In this document: positions 9,390 through 15,374 of the stretch, in pieces
Numbering within the stretch: position 1 is the stretch's first letter
Layout: each line of letters starts with the position of its first letter
DNA from: a virus
Reading direction: 5' to 3' (one strand)
Length of the DNA: 22,236 nt
Virus record (IMG/VR): IMGVR_UViG_3300042731_007046
Coordinates: 1-22,236 of that record
Translations under genes and position numbers: made by a program
The notes under the pieces: model-generated
The model's database searches: none
Told to the model about the DNA's origin: nothing
The model's input: only the letters and a program-made list of their open reading frames with translations

Positions 9390-9767
9390 CTATGCCGGAG
9401 CAACCGGCGCGGTGAGAGTAGGAATTGGGGGAGTCGTCGTGTCGGACGTAACGCTGAATGTCGCGGTGGTAGCGCCAACCTGGGTGAGGGTCTTGTCGTA
9501 GTAGGTGGCCTGATACTTCGTGTTGTGAGGAGTCATGTCGGAATTGTAATACAATCCGACTTCCTGCAGGAAGCTACCGTCTTCGATTGGAATGACGCAC
9601 CATTCCGGGAGTTTCACGGGAGTGGTGCCAGTGGGGGAGGTCTTCTTGAACAGATTTGTCCAGCCGGTGGGGAATACGACCTCGACCTTGACGTAGCCGT
9701 CAAAGTTCACGCCGTCAGACCATTGGACGGTACCGCTCAACTTAGAGATTCGGGGCGTTGTCGACAC
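9390..9767 (-). CDS. Small beta-rich virion-like protein with GTG start
   Basis: 125 aa, starting (GTG) STTPRISKLSGTVQWSDG, then NFDGYVKVEVVFPTGWTNLF, and a Thr/Pro-rich end (SDTTTPPIPTLTAPVAPA). The strand-turn pattern resembles small beta-sandwich proteins of phage heads and tails. The start codon is GTG, preceded by AGGTAGGA at 4 nt. A TATAATGG box is just upstream at 9787-9794, so this gene may begin a new transcript after the last tRNA. Confidence 0.65.
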   Translation of the reverse strand: MSTTPRISKLSGTVQWSDGVNFDGYVKVEVVFPTGWTNLFKKTSPTGTTPVKLPEWCVIPIEDGSFLQEVGLYYNSDMTPHNTKYQATYYDKTLTQVGATTATFSVTSDTTTPPIPTLTAPVAPA

Positions 9768-10690: not shown

Positions 10691-10767
10691 TGGAGCACCG
10701 TGCAGGACTCGAACCTGCTAAGACGTGGGTTGCAACCACGCACCTCGTCCACTTCGGCTTACGATGC
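10691..10767 (-). tRNA. tRNA-Cys (GCA)
   Basis: 77 nt, CCA encoded. Acceptor GCATCGT/ACGGTGC with one wobble; T-loop TTCGAGT; anticodon stem CGTGG/CCACG, loop TTGCAAC, anticodon GCA. The discriminator is T, the known Cys identity base. Its first 9 nt overlap the end of the lysozyme gene, whose TAA lies in the acceptor stem and position 8-9. Confidence 0.92.
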
Positions 10768-11656: not shown

Positions 11657-12049
11657 CTAAATCTCGCCGTCACGCTTCTGTACCGCCAACTCGAGAGCGG
11701 CCAGAGCAACCCGGAGTGCGAGGTTTTCCTGGGGAGCCTGCGTGATAGGCTCATACCCGTCCTCATTCATCTCCGCAACTTCGGCTTCAATCAATTCGTC
11801 GAGCTCGGTCTCGTCCAATTGCGCCGGGAGCACACCGGCCGTCTGCAATTGGCGGGCTACCTGGAGCGCCATGTTCACGGCGATTTTCTTCTTGGTCTCG
11901 CCGGTCTTGGCCCCAAAGGTGGCCTCGAGTCCCCTTACAATGAAGGGGATAATCGGTGAAATGGGGGCAAGGGGCGTCCCCGCCATCACAGTAGTTCCGA
12001 TGGGAACTGCCACCTGCGCGATTCGCTTCAACTTCTTCTTAATACCCAT
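11657..12049 (-). CDS. Small protein with basic N-terminus and hydrophobic segment, unknown
   Basis: 130 aa from MGIKKKLKRIAQVAVPIGTT. After a Lys/Arg-rich start, residues ~12-45 (VAVPIGTTVMAGTPLAPISP) are hydrophobic and Pro/Gly-rich, followed by an amphipathic part (GETKKKIAVNMALQVARQLQ) and an acidic end region (LDETELDELIEAEVAEMNED). I chose this ATG because the longer frame runs back into tRNA-Phe. There is no clear Shine-Dalgarno. It is near the lysozyme, so a lysis or membrane role is possible, but the hydrophobic part is weak for a holin. Not recognised. Confidence 0.6.
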   Translation of the reverse strand: MGIKKKLKRIAQVAVPIGTTVMAGTPLAPISPIIPFIVRGLEATFGAKTGETKKKIAVNMALQVARQLQTAGVLPAQLDETELDELIEAEVAEMNEDGYEPITQAPQENLALRVALAALELAVQKRDGEI

Positions 12050-12251: not shown

Positions 12252-12280
12252 ATTGTAACACAGCTATCTGTGTTTGTCAA
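12252..12280 (-). promoter_or_regulatory. Internal sigma70-like promoter with dyad in the spacer
   Basis: Minus strand: TTGACA (12280-12275), 17-nt spacer, TACAAT (12257-12252), one base off the consensus -10 and a perfect -35. The spacer is almost wholly a perfect inverted repeat, ACACAG-ATAG-CTGTGT (12258-12273), where a repressor could sit. Initiation would fall near 12245, at the 5' end of tRNA-Ser(GCT), so the first transcript base would nearly coincide with the tRNA. Confidence 0.7.
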
Positions 12281-12288
12281 GTAGAAAA

Positions 12289-12364
12289 TGGAACTCCCGG
12301 CTGGACTCGAACCAGCGTTTCGGCTTTAGGAGAGCCGCGCCTTGTCCGCCTAGACGACGGGAGC
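12289..12364 (-). tRNA. tRNA-Arg (CCT)
   Basis: 76 nt, CCA encoded. Acceptor GCTCCCG/CGGGAGT; anticodon stem CGGCT/AGCCG, loop CTCCTAA, anticodon CCT reads AGG. The stop codon (TAG) of the 60-aa ORF is in its D-arm. Confidence 0.92.
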
Positions 12365-12532
12365 CTCAATCTCGGCGATTGCCCACAGGAATAGGGGCAT
12401 TGTACGAGCCGCCGCCTTCGCTTCTTCTTTGCTTGCATACGCCTCACGATAAACCTCCGACTCGTGCCAACTTCTCAGGCCTGAATCGGATTCACGCGAG
12501 TCCACACGGTGGAGCACATATAGCTTCTTCAT
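12350..12532 (-). CDS. Small ORF wedged between tRNA-Thr and tRNA-Arg
   Basis: 60 aa: MKKLYVLHRVDSRESDSGLR, then a helix SKEEAKAAARTMP and a hydrophobic end LFLWAIAEIEAPVV. The ATG is 5 nt past the CCA end of tRNA-Thr(CGT). There is no usual Shine-Dalgarno, and the TAG stop lies 15 nt inside tRNA-Arg(CCT). The composition looks like a real small protein. No family recognised. Confidence 0.55.
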   Translation of the reverse strand: MKKLYVLHRVDSRESDSGLRSWHESEVYREAYASKEEAKAAARTMPLFLWAIAEIEAPVV

Positions 12533-12536
12533 AACC

Positions 12537-12611
12537 TGGAGCCTAACCGGGGGCTCGAACCCCGCCTTGTGCTTTACGAGAGCACCGTGCCGCCTGCAAC
12601 ACCTGGAAGGC
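12537..12611 (-). tRNA. tRNA-Thr (CGT), two acceptor mismatches
   Basis: 75 nt, CCA encoded. Anticodon stem GTGCT/AGCAC, loop CTCGTAA, anticodon CGT reads ACG. Acceptor GCCTTCC against GTTAGGC leaves T5-T68 and C6-T67 unpaired; the other five pairs are sound. The 82-aa ORF runs 38 nt into it and stops at a TAA in the anticodon loop. Confidence 0.82.
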
Positions 12612-12822
12612 TTGTGGGGTGGCCCTCATCGTCTATCGACCACGCCCAATTTGTTACGATGAAATCATCGACAGCGTCTTCGTCAGACCGCGGATCCGGA
12701 ATGCCGGGCTTCACTCGTCTCCAAACTTCGCGAGACTGCTCGACCGCGCGCTCATACGGAACTATGACCCGCACATTGCCGCCGTCGCATCCTGGTTCAT
12801 CGTATGCGTATCTTTTCTTCAT
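12574..12822 (-). CDS. Small ORF wedged between tRNA-Arg and tRNA-Thr
   Basis: 82 aa: MKKRYAYDEPGCDGGNVRVI, then PYERAVEQSREVWRRVKPGI and an acidic segment DPRSDEDAVDDFIVTNWAWS. The ATG is 4 nt past the 3' end of tRNA-Arg(TCT), without a Shine-Dalgarno. The last 12 codons and stop are inside tRNA-Thr(CGT). The MKK-x-Y start and position mirror the 60-aa ORF downstream, but I see no clear wider similarity. Function unknown. Confidence 0.55.
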   Translation of the reverse strand: MKKRYAYDEPGCDGGNVRVIVPYERAVEQSREVWRRVKPGIPDPRSDEDAVDDFIVTNWAWSIDDEGHPTSLPGVAGGTVLS

Positions 12823-12825
12823 AAC

Positions 12826-12901
12826 TGAAAGTCCCGGCAGGAGTCGAACCTGCACCTGACGCTTTAGAAGAGCGCCGTCCTGTCCGTTAGACTACGGGAC
12901 C
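12826..12901 (-). tRNA. tRNA-Arg (TCT), 3' end TCA instead of CCA
   Basis: 76 nt. Acceptor GGTCCCG/CGGGACT; anticodon stem GCGCT/AGCGT, loop CTTCTAA, anticodon TCT reads AGA. Discriminator T is followed by TCA, so the CCA found in its neighbours is not encoded intact. The tail would have to be repaired by host nucleotidyltransferase. Confidence 0.88.
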
Positions 12902-13167
12902 ACTAACCTACAAGCTCGCATCAACTCTGGATTCAAGCTGTTGGATTCCTTAATCTCCACGGGACCAGATTGTGCAATCCTATGACCACTAGTGTCTTCG
13001 TAGATACCGACACCCCAGCCAGCCGGGTCACAGTCGCGATGAAAGGTGCGAATGCACACATACCCGTCAAGATTGGAACTCGGGTGCGGACTCGAACCGC
13101 AATCTGAGCCTTCGGAGGACTCCGTCCTATCCTGTTGAACGACCCAAGCGAAATATTTGATGCACAT
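12892..13167 (-). CDS. Doubtful ORF reading through tRNA-Arg(CCG), or shorter GTG-start ORF
   Basis: The frame opens with ATG at 13167, 5 nt past the CCA of tRNA-Met, begins MCIKYFAWVVQQDR, crosses all of tRNA-Arg(CCG), and continues CIRTFHRDCDPAGWGVGIYE to a TAG 10 nt inside tRNA-Arg(TCT). The part after the tRNA (12892-13059, GTG start, ~55 aa) has the more protein-like composition. Either a short GTG-start protein or no gene at all is possible; the full 91-aa reading would compete with making the tRNA. Confidence 0.35.
   Translation of the reverse strand: MCIKYFAWVVQQDRTESSEGSDCGSSPHPSSNLDGYVCIRTFHRDCDPAGWGVGIYEDTSGHRIAQSGPVEIKESNSLNPELMRACRLVVP
13074..13149 (-). tRNA. tRNA-Arg (CCG)
   Basis: 76 nt, CCA encoded. 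Acceptor GCTTGGG/CCCGAGT; anticodon stem GAGTC/GGCTC, loop CTCCGAA, anticodon CCG reads CGG. T-loop TTCGAGT. Confidence 0.9.
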
Positions 13168-13171
13168 AACT

Positions 13172-13244
13172 TGGTGGCTCTCGGGGGATTCGAACCCCAC
13201 TTCCGGCTTATGAGACCGGTGTGCAGCCGCTACACTACCGAGCC
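13172..13244 (-). tRNA. tRNA-Met or tRNA-Ile2 (CAT), irregular acceptor base
   Basis: 73 nt, CCA encoded, discriminator A. Anticodon stem CCGGT/GCCGG, loop CTCATAA, anticodon CAT. Positions 1-5 pair with 68-72, but 6:67 (G-A), 7:66 (G-G) and T-stem 49:65 (T-C) do not pair. It could be elongator Met, or Ile2 with lysidine reading AUA; the sequence alone does not decide. Confidence 0.8.
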
Positions 13245-13249
13245 AAACT

Positions 13250-13323
13250 TGGTAGGCCCCCAGGGATTTGAACCCTGATCTTCTCGGGTAAGAGCCGAGC
13301 ATGTTGCATTACACCAGAGACCT
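13250..13323 (-). tRNA. tRNA-Lys (CTT)
   Basis: 74 nt, CCA encoded, discriminator A. Acceptor AGGTCTC/GGGGCCT; anticodon stem CTCGG/CCGAG, loop CTCTTAC, anticodon CTT reads AAG. T-loop TTCAAAT. Confidence 0.9.
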
Positions 13324-13328
13324 AAAAC

Positions 13329-13404
13329 TGGAGCCGAAGCAGGGAGTCGAACCCTGTCCCCATCCTTACCAAGGATGTGTGCTGGCCGTTATCACCACGA
13401 CGGC
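13329..13404 (-). tRNA. tRNA-Thr (GGT), two acceptor mismatches
   Basis: 76 nt, CCA encoded. Anticodon stem CATCC/GGATG, loop TTGGTAA, anticodon GGT reads ACC/ACU. Acceptor GCCGTCG against CTTCGGC leaves T5-T68 and C6-T67 unpaired, exactly the same two mismatches as tRNA-Thr(CGT). Confidence 0.85.
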
Positions 13405-13410
13405 AAAACT

Positions 13411-13485
13411 TGGAAGCCCGTCCAGGAGTCGAACCCGGATTTCGTGGTTCGTAGCCACGTGCCTTGTCCATTAGACGAACGAGCT
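13411..13485 (-). tRNA. tRNA-Arg (ACG)
   Basis: 75 nt, CCA encoded. Acceptor AGCTCGT/ACGGGCT; anticodon stem CGTGG/CCACG, loop CTACGAA, anticodon ACG. A34 would need deamination to inosine by host TadA to read CGU, CGC and CGA. Confidence 0.9.
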
Positions 13486-13490
13486 AAAAC

Positions 13491-13629
13491 TTGTGCGAGG
13501 ACTACGGATCCGCGTGCTATCCACTGCACCACCGGCAGGACTTCCGTGCGTCCACTGCCTATACCGGGTAGGATTCGAACCTACGTCTCAGATCCGGTCC
13601 ACGCTTCGTCCGACTGATCAGGCCGGATA
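13491..13629 (-). pseudogene. Degenerate tRNA stretch (at least two remnants)
   Basis: One unit at about 13557-13629 has a perfect T-arm (GTAGG TTCGAAT CCTAC) and a bulged acceptor (TATCCGG/CCGGTATA), but its middle cannot be folded into a normal anticodon arm, and CCA is replaced by GGCA. Before it in + coordinates, 13491-13536 has a D-arm (GTGC...GCAC) and 5' half but no T-arm or CCA. The stretches 13514-13540 and 13547-13573 resemble each other (GTGC..TCCACTGC..ACCGG), suggesting duplication and decay. No anticodon is assigned. Confidence 0.5.
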
Positions 13630-13632
13630 ACT

Positions 13633-13709
13633 TGGTCGATCCAGAGGGCCACGATCCCTCACCTCCCGGATTAAAAGTCCGGTATGCTGCCCACTTACAC
13701 CACAGACCG
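13633..13709 (-). tRNA. tRNA-Lys (TTT), unusual T-loop
   Basis: 77 nt, CCA encoded. Acceptor CGGTCTG/TGGATCG with wobbles; anticodon stem CCGGA/TCCGG, loop CTTTTAA, anticodon TTT. The T-loop is ATCGTGG, the same unusual loop as tRNA-Trp: A at 54 and T at 58. Confidence 0.88.
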
Positions 13710-13717
13710 ACAGAAAT

Positions 13718-13795
13718 TGGTACCCCGTCAAGGAGTCGAACCTTGCCATTGCGCTCTTTGTAAGAGAGGCTCCTCACCCGTTGGGACTACAGGGC
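13718..13795 (-). tRNA. tRNA-Val (TAC)
   Basis: 78 nt, CCA encoded, discriminator A. Acceptor GCCCTGT/ACGGGGT; anticodon loop CTTACAA, anticodon TAC, stem CCTCT/AGAGC with one end mismatch (27:43). It is the only Val tRNA, so U34 would have to read all GUN codons. The 62-aa ORF ends 22 nt inside it. Confidence 0.87.
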
Positions 13796-13962
13796 GTACT
13801 TGCTTGTTGCCAAGCGTGTTTCGAAATGGCCGATACGGCAAAGAACGCAGCCCCCAAACTCGCAGAGGACGTAAATCCACATCGCCGACAGGTCCAAGCA
13901 ATTTCAACGAAAAACCCGGGCAACTTGTAAAGCAATTCAAAGAACAACTTTAGCTTTGACAT
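13774..13962 (-). CDS. Small ORF between tRNA-Ile and tRNA-Val
   Basis: 62 aa: MSKLKLFFELLYKLPGFFVE, then IAWTCRRCGFTSSASLGAAF. It has a hydrophobic N-terminal half and one CxxC pair. The ATG is 5 nt past the CCA of tRNA-Ile, without a Shine-Dalgarno; the TGA is 22 nt inside tRNA-Val. It occupies the 171-nt gap between these tRNAs. Plausible small protein of unknown function; another minus-strand frame here is also open, so the call is moderate. Confidence 0.5.
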   Translation of the reverse strand: MSKLKLFFELLYKLPGFFVEIAWTCRRCGFTSSASLGAAFFAVSAISKHAWQQASTPCSPNG

Positions 13963-14470: not shown

Positions 14471-14626
14471 TTATCTCTTTGTGCAAGCCCGCTCGAGAAT
14501 CTTCTCACCCTCACGCTTGTTGTGCGTGGCGTAGAAGACCTTTTTGCCTTTCTTGGAGCCATATCGCTTCTTCATCTTGCGCATGACCTTCTCGCCGGAC
14601 CCGCCGTAATACTTCGAAATGGGCAT
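14471..14626 (-). CDS. Small basic conserved-type phage protein (SKYYGG/GEKV motif)
   Basis: 51 aa, starting MPISKYYGGSGEKVMRKMKK, then RYGSKKGKKVFYATHNKREG. This motif order (KxYxGxGEKVMxxMKxRYGxKKGxxVFYATxNKR) is one I recognise as a small domain in many phages, alone or at the ends of capsid-maturation or other virion-gene products; its role is not established to my knowledge. It is very basic. The ATG is 6 nt past the CCA of tRNA-Tyr and the TAA is 1 nt before tRNA-Pro, so the gene fills the slot exactly. It is in the region where no other tRNA fits. Confidence 0.85.
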   Translation of the reverse strand: MPISKYYGGSGEKVMRKMKKRYGSKKGKKVFYATHNKREGEKILERACTKR

Positions 14627-14966: not shown

Positions 14967-14975
14967 AAAAACTCT

Positions 14976-15035
14976 GCGGAGGTTTTCGCCGCAATTTGCC
15001 TAAGCAGTGATTGTCCCCGGCTGGGCGTCCTCCGC
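14976..15035 (-). ncRNA. Possible structured 60-nt element in the tRNA array
   Basis: It lies in the 78-nt gap between tRNA-His and tRNA-Gly(GCC). The ends form a perfect 7-bp helix (GCGGAGG with CCTCCGC), like a tRNA acceptor stem, and inside are nested CGCC/GGCG and CAAT/ATTG helices. There is no T-loop, no CCA and no anticodon arm. It could be a decayed tRNA or a small RNA processed with the array. The call rests on pairing only. Confidence 0.35.
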
Positions 15036-15044
15036 TCGACCACT

Positions 15045-15345: not shown

Positions 15346-15374
15346 ATCCTACCACAAAAGCAGCAGTTTGTCAA
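15346..15374 (-). promoter_or_regulatory. Promoter P1 of the tRNA operon (sigma70-like)
   Basis: Minus strand: TTGACA (15374-15369), 17-nt spacer ending TGTGG, TAGGAT (15351-15346). Perfect -35, optimal spacing, 4 of 6 bases in the -10. It lies between the capsid-gene terminator and tRNA-Ala. Confidence 0.7.

Follow-up and report, generated by a model that had tools for sequence, protein, structure and literature searches.

In mitochondria, polycistronic RNAs carry open reading frames (ORFs) flanked by tRNAs with almost no untranslated regions (UTRs), the ends of the ORFs are set by tRNA excision, and stop codons are completed by polyadenylation of a terminal U or UA. In E. coli, the protein gene secG lies upstream of the tRNA gene leuU, both are transcribed into a single RNA that is cut at the tRNA, with the stop of secG preceding the tRNA. 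A closer arrangement is present in phage T5 (AY543070), where genes within the tRNA array, on the same strand, end at a stop inside the next tRNA. The stop of hegC lies 14 nt inside tRNA-Ser2 and that of T5.069 lies 24 nt inside tRNA-Asn; T5.057 with tRNA-Met and hegD with tRNA-Gln2 are further cases, and the depths in T5 range overall from 6 to 24 nt. Two of these genes carry an annotation as HNH homing endonucleases, and T5.069 is similar to annotated GIY-YIG/T5orf172 nucleases. The 94-nt tRNA-Ser2 is 100% identical in phages TrudiRoth and ESCO40, both of which lack hegC and show unrelated sequence upstream, and Pectobacterium phage My1, in which T5.069 is missing, has a 78-nt tRNA-Asn 100% identical to that of T5. 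The tRNA thus exists independently of the gene and supplies a stop to whichever gene adjoins it. A Klebsiella homolog of T5.069 also stops in this tRNA-Asn, with a different reading frame and a depth of 10 nt, and at least 81 phage records contain most of the T5.069–tRNA-Asn stretch, so that the overlap is stable. Single cases from other protein families are found in Klebsiella phages Spivey and Torridgeon and in mycobacteriophage Bongo (gp105 with tRNA-Leu), all with a stop at tRNA positions 8–10 and a 10-nt overlap. The failure of amber-suppressor conversion for the T5 tRNAs M, S2 and N (3/3, against 8/20 of the others; P ~ 0.09) was considered and rejected, as it is confounded by anticodon identity. 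Searches of the open-licence literature yielded no publication on genes that end within phage tRNAs.

The stretch of DNA analyzed here (hereafter the window) spans 22,236 bases and is a complete IMG/VR virus record. Its minus strand carries the terminase, SU10-like portal, major capsid and tail genes and an array of 32 tRNAs (ARAGORN), which also encloses a holin and a T4-type lysozyme (PHROG and Pfam matches). As described in the initial annotation, five frames in this array end at a stop inside the downstream tRNA on the same strand, and we found the overlaps exact to the base at 9, 15, 38, 10 and 22 nt (Table 1). The window is a further instance of the stop-in-tRNA overlap already present in T5-like phages, but the genes involved are one lysozyme and short ORFs, and the structural genes, with an SU10-type portal, belong to a different type of phage. 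We infer that the genes and the tRNA array form a single transcription unit; two sigma70-like promoters are found on the array strand, one before the first tRNA and one farther downstream, and the number of terminator-like sites on the array is not above that in shuffled sequence.

Table 1. Features of the tRNA array and of the protein genes and ORFs that lie in it.
Feature	Position	Strand	Details
tRNA-Cys(gca), donor of lysozyme stop	10691..10767	-	ARAGORN; Rfam 42.5 bits
T4-type lysozyme, 140 aa	10759..11181	-	Pfam PF00959, E 2e-8; homolog alignment; AGGA upstream of ATG
Probable holin gene	11657..12047	-	PHROG 6918 holin, E 2e-8; inside array, upstream of lysozyme
Sigma70-like promoter	12252..12280	-	TTGACA-17-TACAAT; upstream of tRNA-Ser(gct)
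tRNA-Arg(cct)	12289..12364	-	ARAGORN; Rfam 52.2 bits
Putative 60-aa spacer ORF	12350..12532	-	TAG = 13–15 of tRNA-Arg(cct), overlap 15 nt; codon z 2.4; no homolog
tRNA-Thr(cgt), weak	12537..12611	-	ARAGORN; below Rfam gathering score
Putative 82-aa spacer ORF	12574..12822	-	TAA = 36–38 of tRNA-Thr(cgt), overlap 38 nt; codon z 2.0; no homolog
tRNA-Arg(tct)	12829..12901	-	ARAGORN; Rfam 61.6 bits
55-aa ORF, coding doubtful	12892..13059	-	GTG start at 13059; TAG = U8-A9-G10 of tRNA-Arg(tct), overlap 10 nt; codon z 0.6; no homolog
Divergent Y RNA-like element	13478..13616	-	YrlA, RF02553; between tRNA-Lys(ttt) and tRNA-Arg(acg)
tRNA, ARAGORN Cys(aca)	13718..13795	-	Below Rfam gathering score; loop CTTACAA
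62-aa hydrophobic ORF, coding doubtful	13774..13962	-	TGA = 20–22 of next tRNA (13718..13795), overlap 22 nt; codon z 0.7
Putative 51-aa spacer-filling ORF	14471..14626	-	Stops 1 nt before tRNA-Pro; codon z 3.2
Structured element	14967..15044	-	GAGYGGTCGRGCGGRGRACG...CTCCSCRSA, between tRNAs
Sigma70-like promoter	15346..15374	-	TTGACA-17-TAGGAT; before first tRNA (tRNA-Ala)

Several other features of the array were observed. A similar linker, CCA-AGTTTTG or CCA-AGTTATG, follows most tRNAs between 9825 and 15284 on the minus strand; this short linker is perhaps a processing signal, and it supplies the ATG of most spacer ORFs. The Y RNA-like element scores 25.7 bits against a gathering score of 69 (E 9e-4 in a local search) and shows a T-arm and then a D-arm, with an ordinary folding energy (z -1.5). 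The structured element at 14967–15044 resembles positions 9597–9680 of L082, the closest relative; two more tRNA-like hairpin elements, each followed by an AGTT-type linker, lie past tRNA-Ala in L082 (9448–9600), and one of these ends in a closed stem and CCA. The T5 record also annotates the tRNA-like stable RNAs rna1, rna2 and rna3. Judging from its loop, the tRNA called Cys(aca) by ARAGORN is probably Val(UAC), and, read as Val, it would make the array complete for the 20 amino acids.

The lysozyme is certainly a true gene, which bears out the earlier view that this case is certain in coding terms. Its match to PF00959 (35.1 bits) exceeds the curated cut-off of 22.3, its codon z is 5.5, and a ribosome-binding site is present. 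The stop TAA is formed by positions 7–9 of tRNA-Cys(gca), an overlap of 9 nt that contributes no more than the final two residues of the protein, and in the alignment the C-terminus coincides with the ends of its homologs, in a tail that varies across the family. Base 8 of this tRNA is A, not the usual U, and the TAA depends on it; with U8, the frame would remain open for ~58 further codons, through tRNA-Cys and tRNA-Gln(ctg). The gene could therefore have shaped the tRNA at this junction. As a mark of genes reshaping tRNAs, A8 was rejected: in the survey described below, overlapped tRNAs are not enriched for bases other than U at position 8 (8% of 37, versus ~11% of 1424 non-overlapped tRNAs).

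The small ORFs are putative and weak when taken singly. Among the four that overlap a tRNA, only the 60-aa and 82-aa ORFs show gene-like codon use, as does the 51-aa ORF, and coding by the 55-aa GTG ORF and by the 62-aa ORF is doubtful. The stop of the 82-aa ORF is built from the third anticodon base and A37 and A38 of tRNA-Thr(cgt). It is possible, though we lean against it, that the small ORFs are frames open by chance or the remains of structured RNAs, with only the lysozyme overlap being real. Such an origin would fit the lack of a Shine-Dalgarno sequence at the small spacer ORFs, while the main structural genes mostly carry one, the codon z below 1 of two of them, and the tRNA-like RNAs in neighboring spacers. 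It would also fit the results of homology searches, in which the 60-aa, 82-aa and GTG ORFs had no homologs in phages or viral contigs and the 62-aa ORF had none in phage records and PHROGs. However, all of the small ORFs start no more than 15 nt past the upstream tRNA and end between 1 nt before and 38 nt inside the next one, and in five of the six long tRNA spacers a frame runs uninterrupted from a linker-proximal start up to the next tRNA. The chance of an open spacer in shuffled sequences is 0.09–0.15 each, giving a joint value of ~1e-4, so that as a set the small ORFs are unlikely to be open by chance. Moreover, by eye the 51-aa ORF resembles an ORF in another relative (L083:7096–7284), an ORF in L082 begins at the same AAGTT-ATG linker, and at other loci ORFs of 100–300 aa start 1–7 nt after a tRNA, likewise without a Shine-Dalgarno sequence.

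The arrangement was surveyed across the tRNA arrays of ~120 unrelated viral loci, picked by a tRNA-linker pattern scan. Junctions were de-duplicated by the sequence around them, ORFs were computed, and stops were counted in an interval that begins 30 nt ahead of a same-strand tRNA and closes with the end of the tRNA. Among the 65 non-redundant computed ORFs of at least 150 aa, 22 stop inside the tRNA, and so do 9 of the 32 that reach at least 200 aa. These stops are mostly at a conserved TAG at positions 8–10 or 13–15 of the tRNA. Most overlaps (18/22) fall within the first 15 nt, the commonest depth being 10 nt, and this share is higher than the ~55% expected from random frames (P ~ 0.01). 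These results suggest that deep overlaps are avoided and that some selection, not pure indifference, is involved. Stop-in-tRNA packing is general among phages, and the overlaps in the window are thus real but not unique.

The most probable explanation, in our opinion, is that protein genes are set head-to-tail with tRNA genes and that each frame ends at a stop which the tRNA happens to contain. The borrowed stops are often U8-A9-G10, or are made with A14 (U13-A14-G15) or in the anticodon loop. A tRNA would in this way offer a ready-made stop for most frames, and a gene upstream of it in compact phage DNA would need no stop of its own. The uncut RNA would be translated first into a normal protein; the RNase P cut at the 5′ end of the tRNA would then free the tRNA together with a stop-less 5′ mRNA fragment, which would be rescued or degraded, an outcome that would be tolerated and not serve as a switch. 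How the junctions of the window arose may be viewed by analogy. Among the relatives found via the major capsid protein, terminase and lysozyme, none carries the array, with the partial exception of L082, which ends shortly past tRNA-Ala and the tRNA-like elements, and no pair of relatives with and without any of the junctions was found. An origin by docking of genes at tRNAs is therefore carried over from the T5-like phages.

All five stops are located 3′ of the site at which RNase P is predicted to cut; on a transcript common to gene and tRNA, cutting would therefore leave an RNA without a stop, and to this extent the proposal that maturation removes the stop is sustained. The initial annotation went further and held that each RNA yields protein or tRNA but not both, which overstates the case, since the same RNA can serve translation before it is cut. 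Translation and cutting would rather stand in a trade-off for each RNA molecule and moment. Such competition would not be special to overlaps, since a ribosome at a stop that precedes a tRNA by a few bases would also cover the 5′ end of the tRNA. With putative ORFs that occupy nearly the whole distance from one tRNA to the next and leave hardly any UTR, the window is similar to mitochondrial RNAs, and it shares with secG-leuU a protein gene preceding a tRNA, although the secG stop lies outside the tRNA. The window also differs from mitochondria in that no U or UA is left at the predicted cuts: the lysozyme and the 60-aa ORF would be cut at a codon boundary with no leftover, and the others would retain A, GT and AC. 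A-tailing could not rebuild a stop from these, and we rejected stop completion of the mitochondrial type for the window.

There would be no conflict between gene and tRNA if the overlapping tRNAs were decayed and unprocessed, and the sub-threshold Rfam scores of tRNA-Thr(cgt) and the Val tRNA, together with A8 in three of the five overlapped tRNAs, could be taken that way. We regard this as unlikely, as tRNA-Arg(tct), tRNA-Arg(cct) and tRNA-Cys score 61.6, 52.2 and 42.5 bits, respectively, and the acceptor stem is fully paired in four of the five. Less probable still, arrays of this kind might act as tRNA-punctuated mRNAs, in which 3′ cleavage of one tRNA gives a near-leaderless mRNA and the next RNase P cut removes its stop; if so, the balance between translation and cutting would set the shut-off of each protein, and host rescue would clear the stop-less products. 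Highly improbable is a regulated switch, the timed change from mRNA to tRNA envisaged earlier, in which RNase P cutting would turn off (or delay) the lysozyme and the small ORFs and turn on the tRNAs, with stop-less mRNA by design: only the geometry, with each stop 3′ of the predicted cut, and the location of the late lysis genes holin and lysozyme inside the array agree with it, but the arrangement is common and frame-indifferent across unrelated phages and gene types, overlap depth shows no conserved pattern, and the T5 genes are mobile nucleases without which the tRNA is unchanged.

For the same reasons, a special role of the overlaps in this phage is not supported: the packing is frequent elsewhere, and in T5, where it is annotated, the same tRNA sequence occurs whether or not the gene precedes it. 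Overlaps between genes and tRNAs are often handled as errors by gene callers and in submission checks, and about one-third of the closely upstream genes in the surveyed phage tRNA arrays end inside a tRNA. Head-to-tail packing with borrowed stops raises a question that is testable in phage T5, namely what becomes of an mRNA that loses its stop to RNase P, and whether its translation delays the maturation of the tRNA.
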